This document shows, one piece after another, positions 37,858-54,266 of a stretch of DNA of 64,000 bases. The notes beneath the pieces are model-generated. The model made no database searches and had not been told where the DNA came from. It was given only the letters and a program-made list of their open reading frames with translations. Position numbers and translations under genes: made by a program. Every line of letters starts with the position of its first letter. The stretch's first letter is position 1. Source of the DNA: Eubacterium limosum (GTDB taxonomy: Bacteria > Bacillota > Clostridia > Eubacteriales > Eubacteriaceae); assembly GCF_000807675.2 (NCBI RefSeq), contig NZ_CP019962.1, positions 1 through 64,000 of the forward strand. The letters run 5' to 3'.

Positions 37858-39027
37858 TTATTTTAAAACACGGACGCGGGTGACGCCTTCAATGGTTTTT
37901 AACGCTTCTTTCACGTTATCGCCCACTTCACTGTCGACGTCGATCATGGTATACGCCCATTCACCTCGGTTTTTGTTGGTCATGTCAGAGATATTGATGT
38001 TGTGTCCCGCGAGCACAGCAGTGATCTGACCGATCATGTTCGGAATGTTTCGGTGATTGACGGTGATGCGGTGTACGCTGTTGCATACACCCATGCTGCA
38101 ATTCGGATAGTTTACAGAGTTTACAATGTTACCATTTTCGAGGTATTCGCGCAGTTCTTCTACAGCCATAACTGCACAGTTTTCTTCACTTTCCGGTGTG
38201 GAGGCACCGAGATGGGGAATGTTGATCACATTCGGCATCTTTAAAGTTTCTTCATTTGGGAAATCCACAACATATGCGGCAACGGTTCCGTCTTCAAGAG
38301 CAGTCTTGATGGCTGCATCGTCGACCAGACCGCCGCGGGCAAAGTTCATGAGACGCAGGCCTTTTTTCGTTTCCTTTAAAATGTCTGCATCCACAAAGTT
38401 CTTGGTTTCTTCCATGAAGGGTATATGTAAGGAAATATAGTCGCAATTTTTGAAGATTGCTTCCTTGCTTGTGGACCGTTTTACTTTTCTGCTTAATCCC
38501 CAAGCATGTTCAATGGATAAGTAGGGGTCGAAGCCGTAGACCTTCATACCAAAATCTACTGCCATGTTTGCTACCAGTACCCCGATAGCGCCAAGGCCGA
38601 CAACGCCCATTTTTTTACCGTACAATTCCGGCCCGACAAAGGCCTTCTTTCCCTTTTCTACAGCTGCTCCGACATCGCCGGTTTCATCCAGCAGTGTTTT
38701 CGTCCATTCGACGCCGTCCATCACCTTACGGGAGGACATCAGCATCCCCAGCGCCACCAGCTCTTTAACCGCATTGGCGTTGGCTCCCGGAGAATTACAG
38801 ACCACGATCCCCTGTTCAGAGCATTTATCGATTGGGATATTATTTACACCCGCGCCTGCGCGGCCGATAAACTTAACGCTCTCGGGAATGTCCATATCGT
38901 GCATTTTTGCACTTCTCACGAGAATGGCATCAGGTGCTTCTACAGCATCTGCAACAGTGTAGTTTTCGTCTAATAACTTAAGACCTCTTTTAGAGATATT
39001 ATTGAGGGTTTGTACTTCAAAATTCAT
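37858..39027 (-). CDS. serA: D-3-phosphoglycerate dehydrogenase with ACT domain
   Basis: 389 residues. NAD-binding GLGAIG at 144-149, catalytic Arg in NFARGGLVDD near 231, Glu and His near PHLGASTPESEENC at about 275-290. The C-terminal ACT domain (about 318-389, HRITVNHRNIPNMIGQITAV) gives feedback control by serine. The first step of phosphorylated serine synthesis. It lies 136 bases downstream of serC; the gap holds no clear terminator. Confidence 0.95.
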   Translation of the reverse strand: MNFEVQTLNNISKRGLKLLDENYTVADAVEAPDAILVRSAKMHDMDIPESVKFIGRAGAGVNNIPIDKCSEQGIVVCNSPGANANAVKELVALGMLMSSRKVMDGVEWTKTLLDETGDVGAAVEKGKKAFVGPELYGKKMGVVGLGAIGVLVANMAVDFGMKVYGFDPYLSIEHAWGLSRKVKRSTSKEAIFKNCDYISLHIPFMEETKNFVDADILKETKKGLRLMNFARGGLVDDAAIKTALEDGTVAAYVVDFPNEETLKMPNVINIPHLGASTPESEENCAVMAVEELREYLENGNIVNSVNYPNCSMGVCNSVHRITVNHRNIPNMIGQITAVLAGHNINISDMTNKNRGEWAYTMIDVDSEVGDNVKEALKTIEGVTRVRVLK

Positions 39028-39163
39028 TTGTAATTACCTTTCAATTCAGCTGCAGCAAATCCTGGCCTACTTCGACACTACCCAGGCTTTACTACACGCA
39101 GTATTTGGTGCGCCTGCAATACGGACGCCGGTGCTCAACGTGCTGTCAATGAATGTTTTTTAT

Positions 39164-40252
39164 TTATTTGTTTTCTGTTTCAAACTTCTTCATAAAGTTG
39201 ATGAGTGCGTCTACGCCTGCCATTGGCATTGCGTTGTAAATGCTGGCACGCATACCGCCGACAGTGCGGTGGCCCTTCAGGTTTTCAAGGCCTGCTGCTT
39301 TGGCTTCCTTAACAAATTTCGCGTCCAGCTCTTCGTTTCCGGTTACAAAAGGCACATTCATTAAAGAGCGGTCTTCTGGAACAACGGTTCCCTTGAACAT
39401 GGCGCTGTTATCCAGGAAATCATACAATTTCGCAGATTTTTCTTTGTTAAAGGCTTCCATGGCTGCAACACCGCCCTGTGCTTTTACCCAGTCGTAAACG
39501 AGCTTGCAGATATAAATGCCATAGCACGGCGGGGTATTGTAGCAGGAGTCTGCATCCACGTGTGTCTGATAATTCAACATGGTCGGTGTCATGTCCATAG
39601 CATGTCCAACAAGGTCTTTACGGATAATTACCGCGACCACGCCGGCCGGTCCCATGTTTTTCTGAGCACCTGCAAAGATCAGTCCGAACTTGGATACATC
39701 GTATACTTCAGACAAAATATTGGAAGACATGTCTGCGATCAACGGCACATCGCCTGTTTCCGGCAGATTGTCTGGTCTGAAGCGCGTTCCGTAAATGGTG
39801 TTGTTGACACAGATATAAAAGTAATCCGCATCTTTTCTGAAGGTTGCGGCATCCAGCTTGGGGATGTAAGAAAAAGTCTTATCCGCAGAGGATGCAACGG
39901 CCTGAGCGTCACCATAACGTCCGGCTTCCTGGAAAGCTTTTTTAGCCCAGTTACCAGTGATCACAAAGTCAGCCTTGCCAGTCTTTGTCATCAGGTTTAA
40001 CGGGATCATGGCGAACTGTGTAGAACCGCCGCCCTGTAAGAACAGGATGTCATAATTGTCCGGCACGCCCATTAATTCCTTGTACAACGCCTTAGCGTCA
40101 GCCAAAATTTCAGAAAATGCAGCAGAACGATGGCTCATTTCCATGACAGACATTCCGGTTCCACCATAGTTGAGCATTTCTGCTGCGGCTTTTTCAAGCA
40201 CTTCTACCGGCAAAGCAGATGGACCGGCAGAAAAATTGTAAACTCTTTCCAC
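39164..40252 (-). CDS. serC: Phosphoserine aminotransferase
   Basis: 362 residues, the usual size. Family signatures: NFSAGPSALPVEVLEKAAAE at the start, SHRSAAFSEI, and the PLP lysine in FAGAQKNMGPAGV near 195. It converts 3-phosphohydroxypyruvate to phosphoserine. Start codon is GTG at 40252 behind TTTTAGGAGGAATTTAT. A consensus-like promoter lies 60 bases upstream. It leads the serC-serA-DUF1015(-symporter) operon. Confidence 0.95.
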   Translation of the reverse strand: MERVYNFSAGPSALPVEVLEKAAAEMLNYGGTGMSVMEMSHRSAAFSEILADAKALYKELMGVPDNYDILFLQGGGSTQFAMIPLNLMTKTGKADFVITGNWAKKAFQEAGRYGDAQAVASSADKTFSYIPKLDAATFRKDADYFYICVNNTIYGTRFRPDNLPETGDVPLIADMSSNILSEVYDVSKFGLIFAGAQKNMGPAGVVAVIIRKDLVGHAMDMTPTMLNYQTHVDADSCYNTPPCYGIYICKLVYDWVKAQGGVAAMEAFNKEKSAKLYDFLDNSAMFKGTVVPEDRSLMNVPFVTGNEELDAKFVKEAKAAGLENLKGHRTVGGMRASIYNAMPMAGVDALINFMKKFETENK

Positions 40253-40664: not shown

Positions 40665-43600
40665 ATGAAAAAAAGAAAAAAATTAAGCGCACGTATTCTG
40701 TCGCTTTTGCTGATGGTGGCTTTGATGTGTTCTATGCTGCCTGCAGGTGTCTTTGCAGCCGGAAACACCGCTGTCGTTGATCCTGTCGGCACAGTAGCCG
40801 AAAACGCTGAAAATATCCAGGATAAAAATGACCCTGTACTCCTGGACAATACTGCCGTTACATCCAATGACAAACTTACAGAGGATGCTGAGTCCAAAAA
40901 TCCTACCATCCCCGACAATTCAGTGATTCCATCAGACTCCGAGGCTAAAGCTTCTGCAGAAAATTCTACTCCATCTGAAGATACCGCCTCTGTCACCAAT
41001 CCTGATTATTCCTATGACGAAAAAGGCAATCTCATTATCAACACAGACAAAGGTACTGCTGAATGGCGAAATGACAAAACGATTGATAAAGAACAGGTTG
41101 TGTCGGTCATTATCGAGGAAGAAGTCAATAGTATCAGCGACGGAGCTTTTAAGGGCTGCACCAATTTGACTGGCGTAATTTTAAGAGACGAAAAGACGCC
41201 ACCCGCATTGGGCGTCAATGTTTTTGAAGGAATGCCCTTATGGTTCTCAATTATTGTACCTACAGATACAAGCATTGACATTTACAAAAACGCCGATGGA
41301 TGGAAAGACTATGCATCACATATTGTTTATAACCGCGGTGGATGGTCCTTTGAAAAAGAAACAGGGACACTTTATATTTATATCAACAAAGCCTTTACAG
41401 ACTGGAAAGCAAATGTAAGCATCAACCCAAAGGAAGTCAGGAATTTAGTGATAAGAAACACCGCAAACAATATCCCTGATGACGCTTTCAGTAATTGCGT
41501 AAATCTTGAGAAGGTCACCGTTCTGTCTTTCCTTCAAAGTATAGGCGAATCCGCTTTCGAGGGCTGTTTCAGCCTGACTGATTTCAAAATGCCGGAAAGT
41601 GTTGCGACCATCGGCGACAAGGCCTTTAAGGATACCAAGATATCCAATATCGAGATTCCTGCAAAAGCAGAAATCGGCGAAAGCGCCTTTGAAAACTGTA
41701 CTAAGCTGAGCGAAATTATCCTTCCCGCTGGAATCAGCAAAATCAGCACTTCAACTTTTAAAGGCTGTACCGGATTAAACTTTGCGATGATCCCACACAC
41801 CGTCTCTTCCATCGGTGATGAAGCTTTCTCAGGCTGTAGTGCCCTTGAGGTTATTTGGGTTAATACTCAAACCCCCGCCAGTCTGGGGATTAATGCTTTT
41901 GACGGATTACCAGAAAAAAAAGCCCGTATTATGGTGCCTAAAGAGGCCGTCGATAAATATAAAGATCTTTGGCCCGACTACAAAGAGATTATTTGCGCTT
42001 TTGACACAGGCTACACTTTTGAAAACGGAACCCTTACAGTCACTGCAAATGCCGGTACTGTCTTATGGCGTACCGATGAATCCATCGGAGAAGAAAATGT
42101 CCAGAAGATCATTATTCAGGACACTGTTGACACCATCATAGCAGGCGCCTTTCAATCCTGTAAAAACCTGACAGAGGTCGAGTTGTCCAATAAAGTGACA
42201 ACCATCGGTGAGAAAGCCTTTCGGCGTTGTGTAAACCTAATGTCTGTCCGGCTTCCAAACAGCGTGACAAGAATTGAGTCAGAAGCCTTCTCATCCTGCG
42301 ATAATCTGGTATCTATCAATATACCCGAGGGGCTCACCACCATTGAAAAAGAAACCTTTTATGGCTGCGACAACCTCGCATCCATTGACATCCCCTTCAG
42401 TGTCGTAACAATTGGAGACTCCGCCTTTGAATTCTGCGTATCCTTAACCGAAATAAGTATTCCTGAAAATGTAAAAAATATTGATGCCGAAGCCTTTAAG
42501 CACTGCCGGGCACTCAAGAATGTTGATCTGCCCAATGGGCTCAAAACCCTTGGTGTCATGGCCTTTGCCTATAACACCAGCCTGGACTCTATTCTGATTC
42601 CAGAACAGATAACACATATTGAAAAATATACTTTCCTTGGCTGTACTGCTCTGGACTTTGTGTCCATCCCATCCTCAGTCACTTCGATCGGAACAAGTGC
42701 TTTCGGCGACACCAATAGCCTCAAAACTGTTTTGGTCACCAGAAATATCCCTGCAACTATGCAGGATTCCGCCTTCGGCATGAGCCTTCCTGAGGGGGCT
42801 GAAATTTTTGTCCCCACCAGTTCCGTTGAAGCCTATAAAAAAGCTAACTATTGGATGAATTACGCAGCAAATATTACTGGTTTTGAAAACGGCTATGAGT
42901 TTGATCAGGAATCTGGTAAACTGACAATCAAAACAGAGCTGGGCGCAGTTCTGTGGAAAGAAAATGGAAATAATATCAAGCCCGAAGACATTCAGCATCT
43001 TGTCATTTTAGATACAGTCCAAACCATTCCTGAGGAAGCTTTTGATGGCTGTACAAATCTAAAAACAGCAGAAATTGCCAATAGTGTCACAACTATCGAC
43101 AGCCATGCCTTTTCAGGATGTACTAGTCTGACTGCCATCAACCTGCCTGTAAACCTCGAGACCATTGGCTGGGGTGCTTTTTCTGATTGCAACAACAGCG
43201 CACTAACTGAAATCATTATCCCGGCAAATGTAAAAACTATCGGAAATTACGTTTTTCTTGGCTGCACGAACGTTAAAACCTTTGTGGTTAAAGGTGAAAC
43301 TCCTGCAAAACTAGGTGGCAGAGCCTTTGATGTAGATAGAACAGACTTTACTATTCTTGTACCAACTGGCAAGCTCGCTACTTATCAAACAGCCTGGAGT
43401 GTTTACGCCGATCAGATAAAGGCTGTAGAAGAAAAAGTTGCTTTCCTGAATCTGAGCGCTAACGGGGCTTCTGGTACAGCAACTACCACCGAATTGACCC
43501 TGTCCTTTGACAAAGACATTCAAGCATTGACTGAAAGTGACATCACCCTGATCGGTGCAGCTAAAGGCACTCTGGAAAAAGGCAGCAAAACTGGCGAATA

Positions 43601-43883
43601 CAAACTGTCTATCTCCGGCATTACCGTTAAAAACGGAGACACCGTCACCGTAAAGGTAGACAAAGCTAAAGAAGGCTATCTGATTGAACCAGGCAGCAGA
43701 AATGCTTCAGTATCTGTCAAACAGCCTGCACCAGGCCCAACGCCATCCCCAAATCCAAATAACGGCGGTGGCAATGTGAAAACCGGCGTAACCGATACTC
43801 AGACCGGCGCTGCATGTGCAGCAGTTTTTCTGGGCATTGCCGGCTTAGCTGCTCTGGGCTTTAAACGTAGATTTAATAAATAG
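40665..43883 (+). CDS. Secreted leucine-rich-repeat surface protein (BspA-like)
   Basis: 1072 residues. Signal peptide 1-32, a Ser/Glu/Asp-rich spacer to about 105, then LRR_5 (BspA-type) repeats such as AFSGCSALEVIWV and AFEFCVSLTEISIPENVKNI. The repeats are grouped into four modules, each opened by a beta segment of the form G-Y-x-F-x-x-G-T-L (near residues 108, 226, 446, 745) and the first, third and last closed by a segment like VPTDTSIDIYKNADGWKDYA. An Ig-like domain occupies about 925-1025. The C-terminus has NVKTG, a hydrophobic span and KRRFNK, a wall/membrane anchor without a clear LPxTG. Confidence 0.88.
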   Translation: MKKRKKLSARILSLLLMVALMCSMLPAGVFAAGNTAVVDPVGTVAENAENIQDKNDPVLLDNTAVTSNDKLTEDAESKNPTIPDNSVIPSDSEAKASAENSTPSEDTASVTNPDYSYDEKGNLIINTDKGTAEWRNDKTIDKEQVVSVIIEEEVNSISDGAFKGCTNLTGVILRDEKTPPALGVNVFEGMPLWFSIIVPTDTSIDIYKNADGWKDYASHIVYNRGGWSFEKETGTLYIYINKAFTDWKANVSINPKEVRNLVIRNTANNIPDDAFSNCVNLEKVTVLSFLQSIGESAFEGCFSLTDFKMPESVATIGDKAFKDTKISNIEIPAKAEIGESAFENCTKLSEIILPAGISKISTSTFKGCTGLNFAMIPHTVSSIGDEAFSGCSALEVIWVNTQTPASLGINAFDGLPEKKARIMVPKEAVDKYKDLWPDYKEIICAFDTGYTFENGTLTVTANAGTVLWRTDESIGEENVQKIIIQDTVDTIIAGAFQSCKNLTEVELSNKVTTIGEKAFRRCVNLMSVRLPNSVTRIESEAFSSCDNLVSINIPEGLTTIEKETFYGCDNLASIDIPFSVVTIGDSAFEFCVSLTEISIPENVKNIDAEAFKHCRALKNVDLPNGLKTLGVMAFAYNTSLDSILIPEQITHIEKYTFLGCTALDFVSIPSSVTSIGTSAFGDTNSLKTVLVTRNIPATMQDSAFGMSLPEGAEIFVPTSSVEAYKKANYWMNYAANITGFENGYEFDQESGKLTIKTELGAVLWKENGNNIKPEDIQHLVILDTVQTIPEEAFDGCTNLKTAEIANSVTTIDSHAFSGCTSLTAINLPVNLETIGWGAFSDCNNSALTEIIIPANVKTIGNYVFLGCTNVKTFVVKGETPAKLGGRAFDVDRTDFTILVPTGKLATYQTAWSVYADQIKAVEEKVAFLNLSANGASGTATTTELTLSFDKDIQALTESDITLIGAAKGTLEKGSKTGEYKLSISGITVKNGDTVTVKVDKAKEGYLIEPGSRNASVSVKQPAPGPTPSPNPNNGGGNVKTGVTDTQTGAACAAVFLGIAGLAALGFKRRFNK

Positions 43884-43943: not shown

Positions 43944-45167
43944 TTATTCAATGGTCACCGTTGTCCTGGCCGGTGTGATGCTTTTAATCTGCTCAGATGG
44001 AAGTGATATCTGGATTACCACCTCCTGATCTCCCTTTCCGAGACCGTTCAGATCAACGAAAGCTTTTATGTTATCCGCAGTCAGCTTGTTAAGCTCGGTG
44101 GCTGTACCACTCAGCTTCACAACTACCGAAGAATCCTTTACCTTGGCGGCGGTGAGCCCCTGACTCACATTTCGGGTCTCAATACTGCTGATCGTGAAGC
44201 TCTTTTCAATAATCGGTTCAATATTGACAGTAACGGTGGCCTTATCGCCATTATCCAGGAAAGAAGCCCCATCCGGCAGTTTCAGAGTAACCTCCTTGGT
44301 CACCGCCTTATTGGCCCCTGAAACATCCACCGGGTCAATCTGAATGTTCTGGATCGTGTCCAAAACCTCCTGCTTGGCGCCGACCATTTTCTGGGTCGGG
44401 TCAACCGTCACGCTGGTCACCTTGTAGCCCGACTGGGGATCTCCCGTCGTTGTCGGCGGAGTGATGTTGACGGTTTTGGTCTTACCCACCTCAATATTAA
44501 CGCGGACAACATCCGGCTCGCACTCAACGCCGCTGACAATATTTCCATCTTTATCATAAGGTGTCACTTCCAGCATTCTGGAGGTATCCTCAGTCAGGCC
44601 ATTTACATTGGCAGTGACAGCAATTTTATCAATGGCCGCAATGCGGTCTTCGGCGCCAGTTACCTGAACCTTTTCTGTGCTGGTGGCTGAGATCACAGCA
44701 TTGTCATTACCAGGCTTACCCTGAGTAATGACCTCTACATCCTTTTCGGACTCAATAACGTTGTCCACCACCAGATGCAGCGTACTCGGGTTAACCTCCT
44801 TCAGAATAACGGAATTGGACAGCCCCTTGATGACAATCTCAGGGTTGTACTCGCCCTTTTTATCAATATCCTTCAGATCTACCTCTGCGGTGATCTCATT
44901 GGTATTGATCTCCTGCAGGCTCCTGTCTGTCCCCTGCACGCGCAGGTTAACATAATAATTACGGTTATCCTCAAGCACCAGGTGTTTTTCCTGCAGGGTC
45001 TCCATATTTGTAAAGGTAACTGGAATGGCGTTAATATCCTGAGGAACAATATCATTGCTGTTCCCGTTGATGAACAGCCAGAGGATAATGGCCAGGACCG
45101 CTGAGCTCAGCAGCCTTATGGTTTTTTCATTAATCGATATCTGTTTCTTTTTCTTCTTCGTTGCCAT
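43944..45167 (-). CDS. cdaR: YbbR-domain regulator of diadenylate cyclase
   Basis: About 407 residues from ATG 45167, which has GAGGAAAAAAAG before it; an upstream ATG (45218) has no proper site. A lysine-rich N-terminus, one TM (SSAVLAIILWLFINGN) and then four extracellular YbbR domains (e.g. IPVTFTNMETLQEKHLVLED; KTVNITPPTTTGDPQSGYKV). CdaR binds and modulates CdaA at the membrane. It overlaps the cdaA end by 38 bases, the conserved order cdaA-cdaR. glmM is not in the window directly downstream. Confidence 0.9.
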   Translation of the reverse strand: MATKKKKKQISINEKTIRLLSSAVLAIILWLFINGNSNDIVPQDINAIPVTFTNMETLQEKHLVLEDNRNYYVNLRVQGTDRSLQEINTNEITAEVDLKDIDKKGEYNPEIVIKGLSNSVILKEVNPSTLHLVVDNVIESEKDVEVITQGKPGNDNAVISATSTEKVQVTGAEDRIAAIDKIAVTANVNGLTEDTSRMLEVTPYDKDGNIVSGVECEPDVVRVNIEVGKTKTVNITPPTTTGDPQSGYKVTSVTVDPTQKMVGAKQEVLDTIQNIQIDPVDVSGANKAVTKEVTLKLPDGASFLDNGDKATVTVNIEPIIEKSFTISSIETRNVSQGLTAAKVKDSSVVVKLSGTATELNKLTADNIKAFVDLNGLGKGDQEVVIQISLPSEQIKSITPARTTVTIE

Positions 45168-46008
45168 CTTTTTTTCCTCGGAATTTAAAGAATCCTTTTT
45201 CACTGTCGTTTTCGTCATCCTTTGCCATAAAACGGTCTGTCAAAAGCTGATCAACCATTGCCGGCGTCATGTTCCGGGTCAGTGTGCCCTTTTCCGTATA
45301 TGAAATAGTACCCGTCTCCTCTGAAACGATGATGGTAATGGCATCGGATTTTTCCGAGATTCCCAAACCTGCCCGATGTCTGGTTCCCAACTCACTACCC
45401 AGATAGCGGTTGTCGGATAAAGGCAGCAGACAGCCTGCAGCCCGGATCTGATTTGTCCAGAGCTTCACCACCATTGCGCCGTCATGAAGCGGCCTGTTCG
45501 GTGTGAAGATATTTTCAATCAGCTCCTGGCTGATGTCTGAGTCCAGTTCGATGCCCGTATCCACAATGTTGTTCAGCCCAGTGTTCATCTCGCAGACAAT
45601 CAGCGCTCCGATATGCTCCTTCGAGAGGTTTCCCACAGCCCGGCTGATCTCGCCTATATCGCTCAGCATTCTCGTCCTGTCACGATTACTTTTCCTGAAA
45701 ACCTGTTTAAAAGCTTTATTATTTCCCAGCTGTTCAAGGGCAGAGCGCAGTTCGGGCTGGAACACCACCACAAAAATAATGAACGCGAAGGTGAACATGC
45801 TGTTGATTAAGTAGTTCAACGTTGTAAAACCCAACCAGTTGCTGAGTGGGGATAGAATCAGTAAAATAATGATTCCTTTTGCCACCTGCTCTGCTTGGGT
45901 ACCACGTATCCACATCAAAACCTTGTATATTAAAAAAGTAATGATGATAACCTCGATGACGCTGCTGACTGTTATTCTTGATTGTATATATAAACGTAGT
46001 TCTTCCAT
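45130..46008 (-). CDS. cdaA: Diadenylate cyclase CdaA
   Basis: 292 residues from ATG 46008. Three N-terminal TM helices (about 15-90), a short linker, and a DAC domain with the catalytic LHDGAMVV and TRHRAGLG motifs (DGA and RHR). It makes cyclic di-AMP from two ATP. The C-terminal tail is highly charged (KDDENDSEKGFFKFRGKKDG). An upstream ATG at 46038 lies just behind a TATAAT box, so it is probably not translated. Downstream overlaps cdaR. Confidence 0.95.
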   Translation of the reverse strand: MEELRLYIQSRITVSSVIEVIIITFLIYKVLMWIRGTQAEQVAKGIIILLILSPLSNWLGFTTLNYLINSMFTFAFIIFVVVFQPELRSALEQLGNNKAFKQVFRKSNRDRTRMLSDIGEISRAVGNLSKEHIGALIVCEMNTGLNNIVDTGIELDSDISQELIENIFTPNRPLHDGAMVVKLWTNQIRAAGCLLPLSDNRYLGSELGTRHRAGLGISEKSDAITIIVSEETGTISYTEKGTLTRNMTPAMVDQLLTDRFMAKDDENDSEKGFFKFRGKKDGNEEEKETDID

Positions 46009-46040
46009 ACCGTTGTTATCCCCATATATAGTATGCATTT

Positions 46041-46046
46041 ATTATA
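46041..46046 (-). promoter_or_regulatory. Probable -10 of the cdaA promoter
   Basis: TATAAT on the minus strand, 33 bases before the chosen cdaA ATG; the matching -35 (TTATAA, 17 bases away) is weak. Supports the start choice at 46008. Confidence 0.5.
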
Positions 46047-46130
46047 CACTATTTTTTCTTAAGTTATAACCGGATTCAGACAAGTTTTTTTCATTTTACA
46101 ATTTTGATACACTTCTTTACAAAAATAACG

Positions 46131-46158
46131 TTTACAAATTCAGAAAAGGTGGTATAAT
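46131..46158 (+). promoter_or_regulatory. Promoter of the CBS-protein leader RNA
   Basis: TTTACA at 46131-46136 and TATAAT at 46153-46158, spacer 16. Strong match. Transcription should start near 46165, 285 bases before the CBS gene and divergent from cdaA. Confidence 0.8.
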
Positions 46159-46164
46159 AATACC

Positions 46165-46426
46165 ATAATCAATTACAAAGAAGATTACTTTAAGTGTTTC
46201 TACAGCATTGTAGCTAACGTCAAATAAAAGAATTAGAAGCCACAATCTCGCTGTCGAGGTATACTGGTAAGTTCATTATACTTTATTTGGAAAAGAATCT
46301 ATCTGAGTGAATTGATAAAATTTACAGGAAAGGGGTGAGACCACCAAAAATGCAAACTGAACCAAAGAATTAAAACCGGTTCCATCGTACAAAGGTACAG
46401 AGATATGGAACCGGTTTTAATTTTTT
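46165..46426 (+). ncRNA. Candidate leader / attenuator RNA upstream of the CBS gene
   Basis: About 262 nt from the promoter to a terminator whose 14-base arms (46372-46385 and 46405-46418) pair perfectly, with an inner GTAC/GTAC stem, followed by six T. Small hairpins precede it: CTACAGCATTGTAG at 46200-46213 and CTCG/CGAG at 46247-46258. The terminator ends 24 bases before the CBS start, so read-through must be regulated, or the RNA is a free sRNA. It is not a T-box, and the conserved blocks of the ydaO c-di-AMP riboswitch were not found. Family unknown. Confidence 0.6.
46350..46373 (+). CDS. Possible seven-codon leader peptide (MQTEPKN)
   Basis: ATG at 46350 behind AAAGGGGTGA at 46329-46338, stop TAA at 46371-46373 overlapping the first base pair of the terminator stem. 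The geometry would let a translating ribosome touch the terminator. Too short to prove from sequence; it may be chance. Confidence 0.3.
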   Translation: MQTEPKN

Positions 46427-46449
46427 GATTGATGCAAAGGAGCACTTCT

Positions 46450-46878
46450 ATGAAAAATCATCTTTTTTATCTGATTCCCAAAAGTGACGTCATTTTCTTA
46501 TATAATCACCAGTCCTTCGAGGAGGCCTATGACCTTTTTCTGAAAAGCGGCTACACAGCCATGCCGGTCATCAACAAGCGCGGGCAGTATGTGGGCACTA
46601 TTTCCGAGGGCGACCTCCTGCGCACGCTGGCCTTGAGCATGGAGCATCCTGAGATCACCTTAAAGGACTTTACCGTCAAAGACATTGATTTTAAAACCAA
46701 GTCCGAGGCAGGCCGTGTCGATGATTCCTTTGAAACCATCCTGGAGATGGCCACTCATCAGAACTTTGTCCCGCTGGTCGATGACCAGAATGTATTTATC
46801 GGTATCCTGCGCAGACAGGAGCTGATTAAGGAGCTGCTGAATTACCTCAAAGAGATCGACGCCCCCATCGAAGGATAG
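46450..46878 (+). CDS. CBS-pair protein, candidate c-di-AMP receptor (DarB/CbpB-like)
   Basis: 142 residues from ATG 46450 (AAAGGAG site). Two CBS motifs: SGYTAMPVINKRGQYVGTIS near 35-54, with EGDLLRTLA after it, and NFVPLVDDQNVFIGILRRQE near 109-128. No other domain. The size and motif layout match small stand-alone CBS proteins such as DarB (B. subtilis) and CbpB (Listeria), which bind c-di-AMP and act on Rel and pyruvate carboxylase. Position between cdaA and pyc strengthens this. Ligand binding is inferred. Confidence 0.75.
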   Translation: MKNHLFYLIPKSDVIFLYNHQSFEEAYDLFLKSGYTAMPVINKRGQYVGTISEGDLLRTLALSMEHPEITLKDFTVKDIDFKTKSEAGRVDDSFETILEMATHQNFVPLVDDQNVFIGILRRQELIKELLNYLKEIDAPIEG

Positions 46879-46883
46879 GGTGT

Positions 46884-46925
46884 TAAAAAACCCGCATTGT
46901 CATTTTACGGCAATGCAGGTTTTTC
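46884..46925. terminator. Bidirectional terminator (CBS gene / pyc)
   Basis: AAAAAACCCGCATTG pairs with CAATGCAGGTTTTT around a TCATTTTACGG loop. It serves both convergent genes. Confidence 0.85.
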
Positions 46926-46928
46926 TTG

Positions 46929-49900
46929 TTATTCCATTGTGATAATCAATTCGCCGGACTGGACACTTTGTCCTTCGGACACATAGATTTCTTTGATTTT
47001 TCCTGCGGCATGGGCTACAATTTCTGTTTCCATCTTCATGGCTTCAACGATGATCAGCGGCTGGTTTTCTTCCACTTCGTCGCTTTCATTCACTAATACC
47101 TTCAAGACTGTACCAGGAATTCCGGAGCCGATTTCCTTCGGATTGTTTTTGTCCGCCTTAAGCATGGTGCTCTTTTCCTTGGAGAACAGGCTTCGCTTAT
47201 CTTCGATATAGATTTCACGGCGGAAACCATCGACTTCAAAGAGGACAGGGCGGTAGCCTTCTTCGTTGGGCTGGCCCATCTTGACCATGCGGATAATAAA
47301 GCGTTTCCCTTTATCCACTTCAACCTCAGCGGTTTCACCTTCCTTGAGTCCATAAAAGAAAGCGTGTGTATCCATACGCATGAAATCACCGTAATCCTGG
47401 TAGAATTTTACATAATTCTTAAAGACCTTGGGGTACAAGGCCGCACTGGTTACCTCACGTTCTGCCAGCTCAATGCCAAACTCATCGCGGTATTCCTCGC
47501 GGATCGCCTCAAAATCTTCCGGCGGGAGCAGTGTGCCCGGGCGGACGGTGATGGGCTCAATACCTTTCAGGACAATTTCCTGAAGCTTCGGATCAAAACC
47601 GCCCTCAGGCTGGCCGATCATCCCCTTGAAATAATCCACAACCGAATTTGGGTAAGCGAGATCCTTTCCCTTATCGTAGATATTATCCTTGTCCAGACCG
47701 TTTTGTACCATGAAGATCGCCATATCCCCAACCACCTTGGAGGAAGGAGTAACCTTGACAATATCGCCCAGCAGTACGTTGGCTTCCATATATTTCTGCT
47801 TAACTTCTTTGAACTTATGGCCGAGACCAAAGCTTTCGACCTGGCTTTTCAGATTAGAATACTGACCGCCTGGAATTTCCAGCTTGTAAATTTCCGCACT
47901 TCCGGATTTCAAGCCAGATTCAAACTTACCGTAAACCTGACGGGTTGTCTCCCAATAATCGGAAATCAGCTGGAGATCGTCCTCGCTCATGCCCGTATCA
48001 CGCGGGGTATTGGCCAGAGCCGCAACCACAGAGTTTAAGGACGGCTGGCTGGTCAGGCCGCTCATGCTGCTGAAAGCCGCATCGGCGATATCTACACCTG
48101 CCATGGTGGCCATAAGAATGGCCGCGACGCCGTTGCCCGCAGTATCGTGCGTGTGCAGGCGAACCGGGATCTTCACTTCTTCCTTCAGGGTTTTGATCAG
48201 CTTGAATGCTGCTGCCGGTTTTAACAGGGCAGACATATCTTTAATGGCCAGGATGTGCGCACCGGTTGCCTCAATTTCATGAGCCATGCGCACATAATAG
48301 TCCAGATCGTATTTAGTTTTTTTAGGGTCCAGAATATCGCCGGTATAGCACATGGCGACTTCGCAGACCTTGCCGGTTTTCAGGACTTCCTCGATGGAAA
48401 CCTTCATCCCCTCCATCCAGTTGAGGGAGTCAAAAATACGGAAGACGTCAATCCCGCCCTCGGCGGATTCTTTGATAAACTTACGCAGTACATTGTCCGG
48501 ATAGTTTTTATAACCGACCGCGTTGGCCCCGCGCAGCAGCATCTGGAACAGGATGTTTGGAATACGCTTGCGCAGCTCGTCCAGTCTTCTCCATGGAGAT
48601 TCCTTCAGGAAATTATAGGCTACGTCAAAGGTAGCGCCGCCCCACATTTCCAGTGCAAAAATATCCTGTCCAAGATAGGCGGTTTCCTTGGCGATCTTGA
48701 TCATATCGCGGCTGCGGACACGGGTGGCAAACAGAGACTGGTGCGCGTCGCGCAGTGTGGTGTCGCCCAGAAGCAGCTTGTCCTGGCTCTGAATCCATTT
48801 AACCAGGCCATCCGGACCCTGTTCATCCAAAATCTGCTTGGTACCGCGAAGCTCGATGCCTCTCGGAATTTCTGGGATTTCCGGTTCATCAAAATCCGGT
48901 TTGTTACCAAAGGTTTCATTGACAGCCATTTCGCCAAAGTAACGGATCACGTCGTAGGCCTGGCTCTTTTCTGCCTGAATATTGAACAGCTCAGGGTGAT
49001 CATCAATGAATTTGGTATCACAGTTGCCGCTCTTAAACATATCGTGTTCCAGAACGTTGATCAGGAAGTCCTTGTTGGTCTGAACACCCTCGATCTGCAT
49101 TTCCTTAAGGGCACGAAGCGCCTTGCGGCGAGTATCCTCAAAGGTTCTGGAATAAGAGGTGGATTTCATTAAGAGGCTGTCATAGTAAGGAGTGATCTCG
49201 CCGCCGGTAAAGCCGTTGCCGGTATCGAGACGGATACCCGCACCACTGGCGGTACGGTAAACGTCCAGACGGCCCGTATCCGGCATAAAATGGTTTTTGG
49301 GGTCCTCGGTGGTAACACGGCACTGGATAGCATAGCCGCGGCTTCTGACGCCTTCCTGGCTCTTGATGTTAATCTCATCCGAATCCAGTGGATAGCCCTC
49401 AGCGATCATGATCTGGGACTGAACCAGGTCGATACCTGTGACCAGTTCGGTAACAGTGTGCTCTACCTGGATTCTCGGGTTCATTTCAATAAAGTAATGA
49501 TCGCCTTTTTTATCCACCAAAAACTCAATGGTACCGGCGTTGCGGTAATTGACCGCCTTTGCCAGCTTCAAAGCATCGGCACAGATGGCCTGACGCTGTT
49601 CCTCGCTGATGCTGAGTGACGGCGTAAACTCGATAATTTTCTGATGGCGTCTCTGGATCGAGCAGTCACGTTCAAAAAGATGGACTACATTGCCGTAAGC
49701 GTCGCCCAGAATCTGGACTTCAATATGCTTTGGCTCTTCCAAATATTTTTCAACAAAGATGGTGCCGTCGCCAAAGGCCTTGGTAGCCTCACTCATAGCC
49801 GAATGGTATTCCTTTAACAGGTCCTTTTCGTCGCGAACGATACGCATACCGCGTCCGCCGCCGCCGGCTGCAGCCTTAAGCATGATCGGATAACCCGCCA

Positions 49901-50357
49901 CCTTTGCAAATTCCGCTGCCTCCTTGTCTGAGGTAATCGGCTTTTCTACGCCTGGAATGGTGGGCACATTGACGGATTTAGCCACAATTTTAGATTGGAT
50001 CTTATCGCCCATCTGTTCCATCATGGTGTGGGTTGGTCCAATAAAGGCAATCCCTTCTTCTTCACAGCGTCTGGCAAACTCTGGATTTTCGGACAGGAAT
50101 CCATAGCCTGGATGGATAGCGTCCACTTCCTTTTTCTTGGCCAGAGAGATAATCTTGTCCATATTCAGGTAGGCTTCGACCGGACCGGTAGTACCGGTAA
50201 TCAGGTAAGCCTCATCCGCCTTGGAACGAAACAGAGACATCTTGTCCTCCTGGGCATAGATGGCAACTGTCTGGATACCAAGCTCCTGACATGCACGAAT
50301 AATACGAATGGCGATTTCGCCGCGGTTAGCAATCAATACCTTGTTAAATTTTTTCAT
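46929..50357 (-). CDS. pyc: Pyruvate carboxylase
   Basis: 1142 residues from ATG 50357 (a TTG two codons earlier is also possible). Single-chain type: biotin carboxylase about 1-450 (AAAGGGGRGMRI glycine loop; ERDCSIQRRHQKIIEFTPSL; FIEMNPRIQVEHTVTE), carboxyltransferase about 525-800 (LLGDTTLRDAHQSLFATRVR; RLHTHDTAGNG), and C-terminal biotinyl domain with EAMKMETE. It makes oxaloacetate from pyruvate for the incomplete TCA branch. In Listeria and Lactococcus the enzyme is inhibited by c-di-AMP. It ends beside the CBS gene. Confidence 0.96.
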   Translation of the reverse strand: MKKFNKVLIANRGEIAIRIIRACQELGIQTVAIYAQEDKMSLFRSKADEAYLITGTTGPVEAYLNMDKIISLAKKKEVDAIHPGYGFLSENPEFARRCEEEGIAFIGPTHTMMEQMGDKIQSKIVAKSVNVPTIPGVEKPITSDKEAAEFAKVAGYPIMLKAAAGGGGRGMRIVRDEKDLLKEYHSAMSEATKAFGDGTIFVEKYLEEPKHIEVQILGDAYGNVVHLFERDCSIQRRHQKIIEFTPSLSISEEQRQAICADALKLAKAVNYRNAGTIEFLVDKKGDHYFIEMNPRIQVEHTVTELVTGIDLVQSQIMIAEGYPLDSDEINIKSQEGVRSRGYAIQCRVTTEDPKNHFMPDTGRLDVYRTASGAGIRLDTGNGFTGGEITPYYDSLLMKSTSYSRTFEDTRRKALRALKEMQIEGVQTNKDFLINVLEHDMFKSGNCDTKFIDDHPELFNIQAEKSQAYDVIRYFGEMAVNETFGNKPDFDEPEIPEIPRGIELRGTKQILDEQGPDGLVKWIQSQDKLLLGDTTLRDAHQSLFATRVRSRDMIKIAKETAYLGQDIFALEMWGGATFDVAYNFLKESPWRRLDELRKRIPNILFQMLLRGANAVGYKNYPDNVLRKFIKESAEGGIDVFRIFDSLNWMEGMKVSIEEVLKTGKVCEVAMCYTGDILDPKKTKYDLDYYVRMAHEIEATGAHILAIKDMSALLKPAAAFKLIKTLKEEVKIPVRLHTHDTAGNGVAAILMATMAGVDIADAAFSSMSGLTSQPSLNSVVAALANTPRDTGMSEDDLQLISDYWETTRQVYGKFESGLKSGSAEIYKLEIPGGQYSNLKSQVESFGLGHKFKEVKQKYMEANVLLGDIVKVTPSSKVVGDMAIFMVQNGLDKDNIYDKGKDLAYPNSVVDYFKGMIGQPEGGFDPKLQEIVLKGIEPITVRPGTLLPPEDFEAIREEYRDEFGIELAEREVTSAALYPKVFKNYVKFYQDYGDFMRMDTHAFFYGLKEGETAEVEVDKGKRFIIRMVKMGQPNEEGYRPVLFEVDGFRREIYIEDKRSLFSKEKSTMLKADKNNPKEIGSGIPGTVLKVLVNESDEVEENQPLIIVEAMKMETEIVAHAAGKIKEIYVSEGQSVQSGELIITME

Positions 50358-50530: not shown

Positions 50531-50824
50531 TCAAACCTTCTTCGTATCCTGTTCATCAATATATGCCTGCTGAACCCTCTTGCTCTGGTCCATAACGGCA
50601 TGAATAAACTCTGTATAATATTTTTTATAATCCGCGTTTTCTAATTTTTCTGTGTTTTTTTTCACGACCTCTGCCTCCCGTTTGGGATCGAATATTTCTC
50701 CATGATTTGTGAATTTATATTCAGCCACCTGGTAGACAAGATCGAGCCGTTCCTCAAAAAGAGCGCGCATTTCTGTGTCAACTTCGTCGATACGCATCCG
50801 GATTTCTTCAATTGATTTTGCCAT
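50531..50824 (-). CDS. aroQ: Chorismate mutase, AroQ type
   Basis: 97 residues, all helical. The active-site pattern is visible: IEEIRMRIDEVDTEMRALFE near the start with the catalytic Arg, then LDLVYQVAEYK (Lys), FDPKREAEVVKKN (Arg-Glu) and HAVMDQSKRVQ (Gln). It makes prephenate from chorismate, the branch to Phe and Tyr. It follows aroC with a 10-base gap in the shikimate operon. Confidence 0.92.
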   Translation of the reverse strand: MAKSIEEIRMRIDEVDTEMRALFEERLDLVYQVAEYKFTNHGEIFDPKREAEVVKKNTEKLENADYKKYYTEFIHAVMDQSKRVQQAYIDEQDTKKV

Positions 50825-50834
50825 ATTTACTCCT

Positions 50835-51908
50835 TTATACCAAAAAATCCAGCATACAAAGCGCTGTGACAGCCTCCACTACCGGGCAGGCTCTCAGGAC
50901 AATGCAGGGGTCATGCCTGCCCTGTATCTCAATTTCAGCATCCTTTTTAGCTGCCATGTCAATGGTCTTCTGGGGCTGCGCGATGGAAGCCGTAGGCTTA
51001 AAGGCTACCCGGTACACAATGGGCATGCCGTTTGTAATCCCTCCGTTAATTCCGCCGTTGTTGTTTGTCGTAGTCTTAACCCTGTCACTATCCATGTAAA
51101 AGGGATCATTGGCCGCAGAGCCACGAAGCTCCGTAATATCAAAGCCCAGTCCAAATTCAACACCTTTTACCGCAGGCACCGAAAACAGCAGTGCGGACAA
51201 CCGGCTTTCAACGGAATCAAACAGCGGGTCACCCACTCCGGCCGGCATGCCTGTTATGTAGCCCTCGATCACACCGCCCACAGAGTCCTGATCCTTAATG
51301 GCCTCGAGGATTTCATCCTTCATCGTCTCCTCCAGCGTCTTTGTATACAGTGGAAACAACGGGTTTTCGTAACAGAGTGATCCGTATTCTTCAGGTTTCA
51401 GATCTCTTTTATCCTGGACGCTGCCAATGGATAAAATCCGGCTGCCGATTTTAACCTCGGGAGCAATCTGAGCCAGCGCTGCCTTGGCAACAGCACCGGC
51501 AAAAACGATGGGCGCTGTAAGACGTCCTGAAAAATGTCCGCCTCCCCGATAATCCTGAAAACCGCCGTAGCGCATCCAACCGCTGTAATCGGCGTGTCCC
51601 GGGCGCATGAGATCCTTCGTGCGGGCATAGTCCTTGGAACGGGTATTGCCGTTTCGGATGATTCCAGTAAGCGGAGTGCCTGTGGTTTTCCCTTCAAAAA
51701 AACCACTGACAATTTCCACCTCATCCGCCTCCTTACGCGGGGTAGCCAGACGGCTGCTGGAGGCGGCACGTCGTTTCATTTCCGCTGCAACTTTCTCCAG
51801 GTCCACTGCCACGCCAGATGGAAGACCATCGATGGTCGCCCCTATGGCGGCTCCGTGAGATTCCCCAAACACTGAAACTTTGATCTTATTCCCCCAGATC
51901 GAACTCAT
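50835..51908 (-). CDS. aroC: Chorismate synthase
   Basis: 357 residues from ATG 51908, overlapping the end of aroA by 23 bases; a longer frame has no support. Signatures: VSVFGESHGAAIGATIDGLP at the start, DYSGWMRYGGFQDYRGGGHF near 110, and the FMN-site GGINGGITNGMPIVYRVAFK near 300. It forms chorismate from EPSP, with reduced FMN. Operon with aroB-aroA-aroC-aroQ. Confidence 0.95.
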   Translation of the reverse strand: MSSIWGNKIKVSVFGESHGAAIGATIDGLPSGVAVDLEKVAAEMKRRAASSSRLATPRKEADEVEIVSGFFEGKTTGTPLTGIIRNGNTRSKDYARTKDLMRPGHADYSGWMRYGGFQDYRGGGHFSGRLTAPIVFAGAVAKAALAQIAPEVKIGSRILSIGSVQDKRDLKPEEYGSLCYENPLFPLYTKTLEETMKDEILEAIKDQDSVGGVIEGYITGMPAGVGDPLFDSVESRLSALLFSVPAVKGVEFGLGFDITELRGSAANDPFYMDSDRVKTTTNNNGGINGGITNGMPIVYRVAFKPTASIAQPQKTIDMAAKKDAEIEIQGRHDPCIVLRACPVVEAVTALCMLDFLV

Positions 51909-53187
51909 GGATAACACCTCCCATTTTCTTGAAATCTTCCCAGAAATCCGGATAAGATTTCCGTACACTCTCGGCGCCTGTTATCGTAAGCTTATCCTGA
52001 CATGCAAAGCTAGCAATAGCGGCTGCCATTGCAATACGGTGGTCATTGTGGCTGTCCACCACACCCCCTGTAAAATATTTAACACCTTCAATGGTCATCC
52101 CCTCAGGATGCTCCGTAACTTTTGCCCCCAGAGTGGTCAGCACTTCATTCATGGCAGCCAGCCGGTCCGACTCCTTAAAACGCAGGCGGGCCGCGCCGAC
52201 GATCTCTGTCGTCCCCACGCTCAGGGCTGCCAGTACAGTGAGCACCGGTACCAGATCCGGACATTGCGAAACATCCACCACCGCACCATGAGTGCTTCCC
52301 GGTTTGGTCACGTATCCCGTTTCAGTCTGGGCTACGCTCCCCCCCATAGACTGAATGATTTTCACAATGGCTTTATCGCCCTGGGATGAATCTGACTGCA
52401 AATCCTCACAATCCGTTTTTTCACCCAGAATACCGCCCACCAGCCAGAAAGCACCTTGGGAAAAATCACCCTCTACCCGGTAATCCCGGGCCGCATACCG
52501 CTGGTTCCCGGCAACGCGAAACAAATGGTAATCCTCATTGACCACAGCAATGCCGAACTTTTCCATAATATCCAAAGTAATGTCAATATAAGGCCTGGAT
52601 TCCAGCGGCGTAGTGATTTCGATGACCGAATCTCCGTCAAGCAGCGGCAGCGCAAACAGCAGGCCTGTAATAAACTGTGAAGAAATGCTGCCGTTCAGGC
52701 GGTAAGTGCCCGGCTTTAAAGTACCCGTAAAGCACAGAGGCAGTTCCTGGCCTTCAGTCTCTTTCTGATAGGTAATGTCCTGTTCCTCAAAAATATCGTA
52801 GTAGGGCTGCATAGGCCGTTCTACCAGCCGTCCGCGGCCGATAACTCTGGAGTCTCTGGCTTTTAACGCCAACAACGGAATGATAAAACGCAAAGTGGAG
52901 CCAGACTCAATACAGTCAATGGTCTTACCCTCTGTATCCGGACGGCTCACACCGGTAATCGTCAGAGTAAAACGCTTTCCTTCATTTTCTTCATATTTGA
53001 TTTCTGCTCCCAGGGTTTCCATAGCCCTACAGGTTGCGGTGATATCATCGGACAAAAGAATGTTGGTGATGACGCTGGTCCCCTGTGACAGAGCCGCGCA
53101 CATAACCGCCCGGTGACTGACGCTTTTGGACGGAGGAATACAGATCGTGCCGCCCAGCTTTTTAGGTGTAATTTCGACTTTTTTCAT
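51886..53187 (-). CDS. aroA: EPSP synthase (3-phosphoshikimate 1-carboxyvinyltransferase)
   Basis: 433 residues. PPSKSVSHRAVMCAALSQGT near 18, ESGSTLRFIIPLLALKA near 90, NGSISSQFITGLLFALPLLD near 165, and the C-terminal RFKESDRLAAMNE and DSHNDHRIAMAAAIA. The active-site set is complete. The region near residue 92 reads SGSTLRFIIP, like class II-type sequences. It joins shikimate-3-phosphate and PEP. Eleven bases separate it from aroB. Confidence 0.95.
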   Translation of the reverse strand: MKKVEITPKKLGGTICIPPSKSVSHRAVMCAALSQGTSVITNILLSDDITATCRAMETLGAEIKYEENEGKRFTLTITGVSRPDTEGKTIDCIESGSTLRFIIPLLALKARDSRVIGRGRLVERPMQPYYDIFEEQDITYQKETEGQELPLCFTGTLKPGTYRLNGSISSQFITGLLFALPLLDGDSVIEITTPLESRPYIDITLDIMEKFGIAVVNEDYHLFRVAGNQRYAARDYRVEGDFSQGAFWLVGGILGEKTDCEDLQSDSSQGDKAIVKIIQSMGGSVAQTETGYVTKPGSTHGAVVDVSQCPDLVPVLTVLAALSVGTTEIVGAARLRFKESDRLAAMNEVLTTLGAKVTEHPEGMTIEGVKYFTGGVVDSHNDHRIAMAAAIASFACQDKLTITGAESVRKSYPDFWEDFKKMGGVIHEFDLGE

Positions 53188-53198
53188 GCTGTCCCTTT

Positions 53199-54266
53199 CT
53201 ACTGAAATAACTGAATGGCCTGGTCCTTATGGATTTTTACGATCTCTGCCTTGCCTATTTTAGTAATGATGCACATATTTAAAACGTCGTTCTCAAATTT
53301 TTTATCTGAATAAAGAATCTCCTTGACACGGTTCAGGTCCATTTCCGGCATTTCATAGGGAAGTCCGTAGGTTTCCAGAATCAACTGAAGGTTTCCAAGG
53401 GTCTCCGGCGTGGTAATCCCCTCGCGCACGCTCATTTTAGTGATCTGGTACATGCCGATGGCTACCGCCTCGCCGTGGGAGTATTCTTTGAATTCAAAGT
53501 AGGACTCAATGACATGGCCGATGGTATGCCCAAAATTGAGAACACGGCGCAGGCCTTTTTCCTTTTCATCACTTTCGACCACATTGCGCTTGATCTGGAC
53601 ACACTTGGCGATAATTTCTTCCATATCCTCCAGCAGATCCTCCTGGTACTCAAAGCCCATGAGGCGTACAAAAAGCTTAGCAGAGCTGATACATCCGTAT
53701 TTGATCACCTCGCCCATACCGTCAGTCAGGTAATGGTCCTCAAGCGTATCCAGAAACTGCGGATCGATGACTACTGCCTTGGGCTGGTGGAACGCGCCAA
53801 CCAGGTTCTTGCCAAAGCCCAGATCTACCCCAACCTTTCCGCCCACACTGCTGTCTACCTGGGCCAGCAAAGAGGTTGGAATCTGGACGAAATCAATGCC
53901 GCGCATAAAGGTAGCAGCGCAGAAGCCAGCCAGGTCTCCGACTACGCCGCCGCCCAGGGCCACGATAGCGTCGGAACGCGTTATGCCCATATCCATGAGC
54001 TGATAGTAAATTTCCTCTACCTGGGCCAGGCTTTTGGATTCCTCGCCCGCTGGAATCACAAGGGTATACACAGATGCACCCAGACTTTTGATCTGCTTTT
54101 TCACATTGCTCAGATACAGCTTGGCAACGTTCTTATCGCTGATAATCACAATGCTGCGGTAGCTGCCGAAAATTTCATCCATCTCAAACAGATGCTCCTT
54201 CAGGCCATTGCCGATCATAATTTTATACTGATGCTTGTTTTCAGTCGTACAGGTTAATTCCTTCAT
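53199..54266 (-). CDS. aroB: 3-dehydroquinate synthase
   Basis: 355 residues. NAD+ and metal-binding marks: VALGGGVVGDLAGFCAATFM (near 100), RGIDFVQIPTSLLAQVDSSV, FGKNLVGAFHQPKAVVIDP, and RRVLNFGHTIGHVIESYFEF with the zinc histidines near 247-251. It closes the ring of DAHP to 3-dehydroquinate. It leads the aroB-aroA-aroC-aroQ operon; aroF/G, aroD, aroE and aroK are not in this window. Confidence 0.95.
   Translation of the reverse strand: MKELTCTTENKHQYKIMIGNGLKEHLFEMDEIFGSYRSIVIISDKNVAKLYLSNVKKQIKSLGASVYTLVIPAGEESKSLAQVEEIYYQLMDMGITRSDAIVALGGGVVGDLAGFCAATFMRGIDFVQIPTSLLAQVDSSVGGKVGVDLGFGKNLVGAFHQPKAVVIDPQFLDTLEDHYLTDGMGEVIKYGCISSAKLFVRLMGFEYQEDLLEDMEEIIAKCVQIKRNVVESDEKEKGLRRVLNFGHTIGHVIESYFEFKEYSHGEAVAIGMYQITKMSVREGITTPETLGNLQLILETYGLPYEMPEMDLNRVKEILYSDKKFENDVLNMCIITKIGKAEIVKIHKDQAIQLFQ

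Follow-up and report, generated by a model that had tools for sequence, protein, structure and literature searches.

Does the clustering of a diadenylate cyclase gene, a candidate c-di-AMP receptor gene and a pyruvate carboxylase gene in Eubacterium limosum mean that c-di-AMP controls the supply of oxaloacetate in this acetogen? Two routes for such control have been shown in other bacteria, namely direct binding of the nucleotide to the carboxylase and action via DarB. We analyzed a window of 64,000 nucleotides (contig NZ_CP019962.1, positions 1 to 64,000), in which the initial annotation had suggested a local control circuit at 45130..50357. The features considered here were as follows.

37858..40252, minus strand: serC and serA, the downstream part of a conserved block in some genera
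43944..45218, minus strand: cdaR, YbbR-repeat regulator of CdaA (Pfam YbbR, 118.8 bits)
45130..46038, minus strand: cdaA, diadenylate cyclase (TIGR00159, 238.6 bits against a cut-off of 188.8; PF02457, 142.9 bits)
46131..46158, plus strand: promoter of the sigma-A type, TTTACA-16-TATAAT, running away from cdaA (TG precedes the second hexamer; consensus matched at 11 of 12)
46163..46426, plus strand: predicted structured RNA of about 264 nt, with closing helix P1, variable interior, ribosome-binding core, mini-ORF and terminator
46327..46342, plus strand: conserved core GGAAAGGGGTGAGACC, an extended Shine-Dalgarno sequence (duplex with the 16S 3' tail)
46350..46373, plus strand: seven-codon ORF MQTEPKN and stop
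46368..46426, plus strand: intrinsic terminator, its 5' arm beginning at the mini-ORF stop codon (fold and sequence)
46450..46878, plus strand: stand-alone CBS-pair gene, 142 aa, clostridial CbpB/DarB-like (NF041630, 75.2 bits; phmmer; tree)
46894..46916, no strand assigned: hairpin followed by a T tail, in the gap where the CBS gene and pyc converge (sequence scan)
46929..50357, minus strand: pyc, pyruvate carboxylase, ATG at 50357 (PRK12999.1, 1726.8 bits)
50531..54266, minus strand: chorismate mutase, aroC, aroA and aroB, the upstream part of the conserved block

Profile scores confirmed the gene identities and order first proposed, with cdaA-cdaR leftward, the CBS gene rightward and pyc leftward. 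Both the TIGR00159 score and the DAC domain by which CdaA is recognized were found, cdaA was the sole PF02457 match found in the 4.42 Mb genome, and its translation contains the DGA and RHR motifs. By homology, CdaA is predicted to make the c-di-AMP of the cell. The cdaR gene overlaps cdaA and lies mostly to the left of 45130..50357. In the cdaA-cdaR(-glmM) operon of Firmicutes, cdaA and cdaR overlap in the same orientation; the E. limosum locus is alike in overlap and orientation, but here the pair is followed by an LRR gene and serC-serA. The listed ORF of the CBS gene begins with TTG at 46429, and the likelier start is ATG at 46450, preceded by AAAGGAG.

The gene order of the locus was compared among relatives. 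The order pyc/CBS/cdaA was kept in 5/5 genomes of Eubacterium sensu stricto examined, but the three-gene set was not kept beyond them. Although the CBS gene stood back-to-back with cdaA, accompanied by cdaR, in all 20 loci of the Eubacterium/Acetobacterium type, pyc adjoined the two in the five Eubacterium loci and was absent from the other 15; Acetobacterium keeps the CBS-cdaA divergence with pyc elsewhere. Within the order, 55 genomes carry both pyc and cdaA; tandems of pyc followed by cdaA within 1 kb occurred in 19 of them (families f1 and f5), usually as part of a longer aro-pyc-cdaA-cdaR block, and at 12 kb in one further genome. Fourteen of these 19 tandems had no CBS gene between pyc and cdaA, and the adjacency also occurred in genera in which no CBS gene was found. 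The aro genes and cdaA accompany pyc with roughly equal frequency. In the class sample, about 150 listed matches per gene, out of a larger number, were inspected by eye; among the matches listed, every full-length pyc lying 20 kb or less from cdaA belonged to f1 or f5. One other member of the family (G163) has a CBS gene near pyc, with one 109-aa ORF between them, and no cdaA was found in eight CBS loci examined from other lineages. The gene order at this locus is more than chance; synteny within related families can also persist through descent alone. The circuit first proposed is partly supported: the pyc-cdaA and CBS-cdaA neighbourhoods are long-standing, but the three-gene set is limited to Eubacterium sensu stricto. 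Three genomes of family f10 (G200, G248 and G305) carry a gene for a 464-aa PYC/OadA-like alpha subunit about 4.4 kb upstream of cdaA; several genes separate the two, and these cases were left out of the pyc-cdaA count.

According to PMC10243994, c-di-AMP directly inhibits the pyruvate carboxylases of Listeria, Enterococcus and Lactococcus. The E. limosum enzyme resembles the inhibited carboxylases (L. monocytogenes, L. lactis and E. faecalis) in enzyme family and domain order, but none of the five contact or space residues of the Lactococcus site was kept, with A/F/L/M/M in place of Q712/Y715/S745/G746/Q749 (LlPC numbering). Position 745 was I or L in 22/22 carboxylases of the compared loci, the small S745/G746 pair was found in none of the 22, and Q712 and Y715 were each kept in four. 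Direct inhibition of the Listeria type, which the initial annotation had cited as background, was therefore judged unlikely from the pocket residues, and binding of c-di-AMP by the E. limosum carboxylase itself is not expected.

The CBS protein matched the CbpB profile NF041630 over positions 10-142 of 143 as a stand-alone CBS pair, but its score missed the curated cut-off of 125. In the class sample, this profile was matched at E<=1e-8 in 90 of 293 genomes, and the cut-off was passed in one of the 293. Pfam reported just the first CBS repeat, and phmmer matched the protein to solved CBS chains including DarB and CbpB. In the tree, the solved DarB/CbpB proteins grouped together (99/96), as did the Eubacteriaceae CBS proteins (100/100), which fell outside the DarB/CbpB group and lay next to f5 proteins within a clostridial branch, in a topology whose root and long branches are uncertain. 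Of the nine c-di-AMP pocket residues, taken from PMC8549634, seven were kept (Ile19, Tyr45, Thr/Ser46, Ala47, Phe115, Ile128 and Arg131), and T130 and R132 (DarB numbering) were changed to R and Q, respectively. That paper describes R132 as a main-chain contact and T130 as a contact via water, and reports that CbpB T130I permits growth of Listeria without c-di-AMP. The seven kept residues suggest that c-di-AMP, or an adenine nucleotide related to it, is probably still a ligand of the CBS protein.

The partner-binding face differed more. Thirteen positions were chosen from the regions where DarB binds Rel, including E34, H35, L38 and G72-I76, as given in PMC9848473; two of the 13 were identical to DarB in the E. 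limosum protein, against 12 in Listeria CbpB. L38 of DarB corresponds to D in E. limosum, and the L38F variant of B. subtilis DarB loses activation of pyruvate carboxylase and retains binding. Because the face is unlike that of DarB, neither Rel nor pyruvate carboxylase can be taken as the target. CbpB/DarB (B. subtilis YkuL and L. monocytogenes CbpB) remains the nearest described family, likewise a lone pair of CBS repeats some 145 aa long, but the claimed likeness does not extend to orthology: a plain DarB orthologue was rejected on score, clade and partner face. The neighbours also differ, with cdaA beside the E. limosum gene and ccpC beside the CbpB/DarB gene (ccpC operon, PMC7900238).

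The initial annotation had missed the RNA at 46163-46426(+), between cdaA and the CBS gene. Copies running divergently to cdaA were found in 13 genomes belonging to four genera, with a similar promoter at the same place in all 12 cdaA-side copies used for the model, and paralogues occurred at other loci with unlike neighbours. The predicted duplex of the core with the 16S 3' tail had an energy of -18.1 kcal/mol here and of -11.7 to -20.0 across nine representatives. Seven codons and a stop were found in 25/27 copies. A simple terminator scan did not list 46368..46426, the loop of which is above the limit of the scan. The P1 helix is proposed because its position is constant among copies; its duplex stability was equalled by at least 25 of 300 shuffles in 7/12 copies, and the fold of the 5' domain gave z values of -0.08 to -3.26 against shuffles over 12 copies, not clearly better in most. 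When the 12 RNAs were aligned with MAFFT, the only consensus structure was a five-pair stem at the terminator.

Known classes were considered for this RNA. It had no match at gathering score in Rfam 15 and was rejected as a known Rfam family; sub-threshold overlaps concerned the terminator region, and SAM_alpha reached 19.4 bits in one copy. It was also rejected as 6S RNA, which this genome carries at 1775843, and as a plasmid or phage element (no match at E<=1e-5). Weak R1 matches in G336 (L180) and G315 (L184), in which the core and ORF were not seen, were dropped as chance. If confirmed, the RNA would represent a new, undescribed family, predicted from sequence and folding, whose unit comprises a structured domain, a ribosome-binding site, seven codons and a terminator. 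We tentatively suggest a new class of structured mini-mRNA in which a closed domain exposes a ribosome-binding sequence that is nearly perfect, together with a seven-codon ORF that has its stop inside the terminator; translation of the mini-ORF would decide between small RNA and read-through, and in Eubacterium the element would be wired to a c-di-AMP-receptor-like gene standing back-to-back with the only c-di-AMP synthase.

The end of the terminator lies 23 nt before the CBS ATG; in G004 this gap is longer, and other signals could fit there. A consensus scan that recognizes one promoter type listed no plus-strand promoter-like site between 46159 and 46449, and the CBS gene is therefore probably expressed by read-through of the RNA. 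Overall, we consider it fairly probable that in Eubacterium two rightward elements, the structured RNA and the receptor-like CBS gene, lie between pyc and cdaA of an old chromosomal block (aroB-aroA-aroC-chorismate mutase-pyc-cdaA-cdaR). The CBS protein would be a clostridial CbpB/DarB relative with an altered partner-binding face, and the carboxylase would be without direct binding. CBS transcription would start at the cdaA-divergent promoter and pass through the RNA and beyond its terminator, so that the amount of receptor would track the frequency of read-through.

This reading was weighed against a circuit in which the apo-CBS protein would bind the carboxylase and switch it on until displaced by c-di-AMP, and in which this control would explain why the genes stay together. 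B. subtilis works in this way (PMC8822347), and the contiguity in Eubacterium and the G163 arrangement agree with it. However, the altered face with D at position 38, the 15 CBS-cdaA loci without pyc and the persistence of pyc-cdaA where no CBS gene was found make such a circuit unlikely; co-transcription is also excluded, since pyc and the CBS gene converge with a hairpin between them. Given the missing carboxylase pocket, the changed CBS face including L38 and the limits of synteny, an effect of the DarB type cannot be transferred from B. subtilis, although it is possible; the gene order permits, and does not show, a link to carboxylase activity. A stronger contender, which may well apply but which we do not prefer, is that the CBS protein partners CdaA/CdaR or another target (e.g. 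ion transport) and that pyc is a bystander of inherited synteny; the Acetobacterium arrangement fits this, whereas the CBS loci of other lineages without cdaA do not. Inhibition of the carboxylase by c-di-AMP from the neighbouring synthase, established in the three genera named above, is very improbable with the pocket residues gone. This acetogen lineage, with a link hinted at by gene order, a direct route made unlikely by the sequence and a receptor whose partner face differs, is a good place to ask whether a third route exists.

The RNA could also be merely a long leader of the CBS gene, as its short distance from the CBS start would allow. This is improbable, because the copies beside cdaA in g5, g8 and g9 have no same-strand ORF of >70 aa before the convergent neighbour, and the paralogues lie beside unlike genes. 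Leader-peptide attenuators have a short ORF overlapping a terminator, and the RNA resembles them in its ribosome-binding site, few-codon ORF and stop at the terminator base. It differs from them in the g5, g8 and g9 copies at cdaA with no same-direction gene behind, in its large 5' domain and in its several paralogous loci.

Inspection of the window located cdaA-cdaR, the gene for a stand-alone CBS-pair protein (CBS gene) and pyc, all where the initial annotation had placed them, and a 264-nt element between cdaA and the CBS gene, hereafter the RNA.

Features of the locus (window coordinates)
43944–45218, minus strand: cdaR
45130–46038, minus strand: cdaA, diadenylate cyclase
46131–46158: near-consensus promoter of the RNA
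46163–46426, plus strand: the RNA, comprising a closing helix, an extended ribosome-binding site, a 7-codon ORF and a terminator that ends at 46426
46450–46878, plus strand: CBS gene
46929–50357, minus strand: pyc, start codon ATG 50357

The start of the CBS gene is best put at ATG 46450, which has AAAGGAG 5' of it, rather than at an upstream TTG. The CBS gene and pyc converge and are separated by a hairpin. The cdaA product was the sole DAC-domain protein found in the 4.42-Mb genome. The window belongs to the Eubacterium limosum/callanderi group, and the CBS protein was 98% identical to its counterpart in E. callanderi FD. A large BspA-type leucine-rich-repeat protein gene (40665–43883, plus strand) adjoins cdaR, with no counterpart at that position in three compared loci (L022, L037, L038).

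We examined gene order in 67 genomes of the order, 55 of which carried both full-length pyc and cdaA. Same-strand pyc lay upstream of cdaA, at most 1 kb apart, in 19 of the 55 (by genus: g1, Eubacterium sensu stricto, 5/5; g2, 1/1; g4, 1/2; g5, 4/5; g8, 1/1; g9, 2/2; in family f5, 5/6). In the g4 exception the genes were on separate contigs, pyc being 317 nt from a contig end, and in the fifth g5 genome they were 12 kb apart. Among the 55, they were more than 90 kb apart on one contig in 8 and on separate contigs in 27. The usual order was aroB-aroA-aroC-chorismate mutase-pyc-cdaA-cdaR; serC-serA lay near cdaR in g1, g3, g4 and g9 and was absent from the examined stretches of g2 and g5. The block was broken on the pyc side in Acetobacterium and G023, where pyc is elsewhere, and on the aro side in G004 and G318, whose examined stretches lacked the aro genes. 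Given this block and its distribution, the pyc-cdaA pair is common to two families, yet part of a larger unit. In three f10 genomes (L215, L216, L217; G200, G305, G248), a gene for a 464-aa PYC/OadA-like alpha subunit, 37–38% identical to the C-terminal half of PYC, lay about 4.4 kb upstream of cdaA-cdaR, and a biotin-carrier-like stretch was also present there.

The CBS gene was divergent from cdaA in 20/20 Eubacterium/Acetobacterium-type loci, with starts 173–474 bp apart by alignment; these loci were selected for having the CBS gene, and two come from MAGs with no name beyond Firmicutes or Bacillota. The initial annotation had read the three-gene linkage as a local control circuit for oxaloacetate supply. 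The pyc-cdaA and CBS-cdaA neighbourhoods lend this partial support, but pyc occurred in only 5 of the 20 CBS-cdaA loci, the Eubacterium ones (of the remaining 15, three are contigs no longer than 10.4 kb). The order pyc-CBS-cdaA was conserved in the Eubacterium loci, whereas no CBS gene lay between pyc and cdaA in any of the 14 adjacent cases outside g1. None was found in 15/15 examined genomes of other f1 genera (E<=1e-3), and cdaA was present in 0/8 CBS loci examined from other lineages. The original observation was confirmed and extended. The cdaA-CBS-pyc linkage was not described in the accessible portions of the literature on c-di-AMP in E. limosum, acetogens or cdaA/pyc gene clusters. 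In G163 (family f38; L092 6058–10777), a single 109-aa ORF separates a CbpB-like CBS gene from pyc; by eye, this was the only such case outside Eubacterium among the class-table matches listed.

The nearest NCBIfam model to the CBS protein was CbpB (75.2 bits; runner-up, 27.3), and CbpB-like proteins occurred in 90 of 293 genomes of a class-wide sample (E<=1e-8), the cut-off being passed by 1. Seven of nine c-di-AMP contacts, taken from the Listeria structure (PMC8549634), were kept (DarB numbering: I19, Y45, T46, A47, F115, I128, R131), and two were changed (T130 to R, R132 to Q). We infer from these residues that the protein may bind c-di-AMP. For the partner face we chose 13 positions within the contact regions of the DarB-Rel structure (PMC9848473), and 2 of them were kept. 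L38 to F in B. subtilis DarB abolishes pyruvate carboxylase activation while binding is retained (PMC8822347); the CBS protein has D there. A 49-protein tree separated the solved DarB/CbpB group (99/96) from the Eubacteriaceae proteins (100/100), which adjoined f5 proteins inside a clostridial branch; its root and its long branches are uncertain. The c-di-AMP site of Lactococcus pyruvate carboxylase requires Q712, Y715, Q749 and small S745/G746 in LlPC numbering (PMC10243994); the window PYC has A, F, M, L and M, respectively. Across 22 PYC genes of the compared loci, position 745 was I or L in all, 746 was M in 21 and S in one, and Q712 and Y715 were each kept in four.

Of these findings, the RNA is the most novel. 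It had no Rfam match at gathering score, no match to plasmid and phage sequences, and no earlier description in the openly available literature searched. Thirteen genomes in four genera have it divergent from cdaA (g1, 5; g5, 5; g8, 1; g9, 2); at cdaA in g2, g3, g4, g6 and g7 it was unmatched. The G023 copy (E 3.5e-12) was an independent find because the other 12 built the model, and it remains by cdaA though pyc is 12 kb away. The best duplex of the 5' end, with a stretch 20–23 nt before the core, had an identical position in 12/12 copies despite sequence differences between genera. Shuffles gave the same geometry in 6.6–10% each (~5e-5 when one copy per genus is counted and these are treated as independent); the energies by themselves were unremarkable in 7/12.

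In nine representatives, pairing of the core (typically GAAAGGRG-TGAG-CC) with the 16S tail ranged from -11.7 to -20.0 kcal/mol, compared with -9.3 for the CBS site and -6.0 for the pyc site. Next come ATG/GTG, six further codons and, at the terminator base, a stop. Exactly seven codons were present in 25 of 27 copies (13 at cdaA and 14 paralogous; two missed by pattern were read by hand), with eight in G014 and the stop lost in G015. Among 19 representatives without G014, the eighth codon was TAA in 11, TGA in 5, TAG in 2 and AAA in 1; the other two frames had stops in 14/19 and 17/19. Codons 4 and 6 encoded glutamate in 13/19 and 15/19, using both GAA and GAG. The choice of copies was not blind to the mini-ORF, since the search models included this region.

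The RNA is probably transcribed. Because the scan listed no plus-strand promoter-like site between 46159 and 46449, the CBS gene would rely on read-through of the RNA; translation of the mini-ORF would hinder the terminator. No same-strand ORF of >70 aa followed the RNA in g5, g8 and g9.

RNA matches of at least 40 bits were confined to family f1 among 391 genomes of the class, the best outside being 25.3 bits (G281). In g1, g9, g4 and 5/6 Acetobacterium copies kept, the paralogues lay 3' of a gene pair resembling TIGR03960/TIGR03936, the family scan covering two loci; a promoter-like site lay 357–535 nt upstream in 7/11. The window's own genome has two 3'-module paralogues (L171 3705–3772 and 10385–10453; G000 C1 near 3746200 and 3752900), the former after a TIGR03960/TIGR03936 pair and the latter, judging by eye, after a likely two-component pair. 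In the paralogous RNAs L182, L183, L173 and L171, a hairpin with a loop close to GCATATAGAGAC is visible by eye about 100–190 nt before the core; both arms of its stem vary, for example from CTTA/TAAG to CCTG/CAGG (uncounted). The interior of the Acetobacterium copies L179 and L181 apparently carries degenerate repeats around TTCCTGGATTTAGAAAA, also judged by eye.
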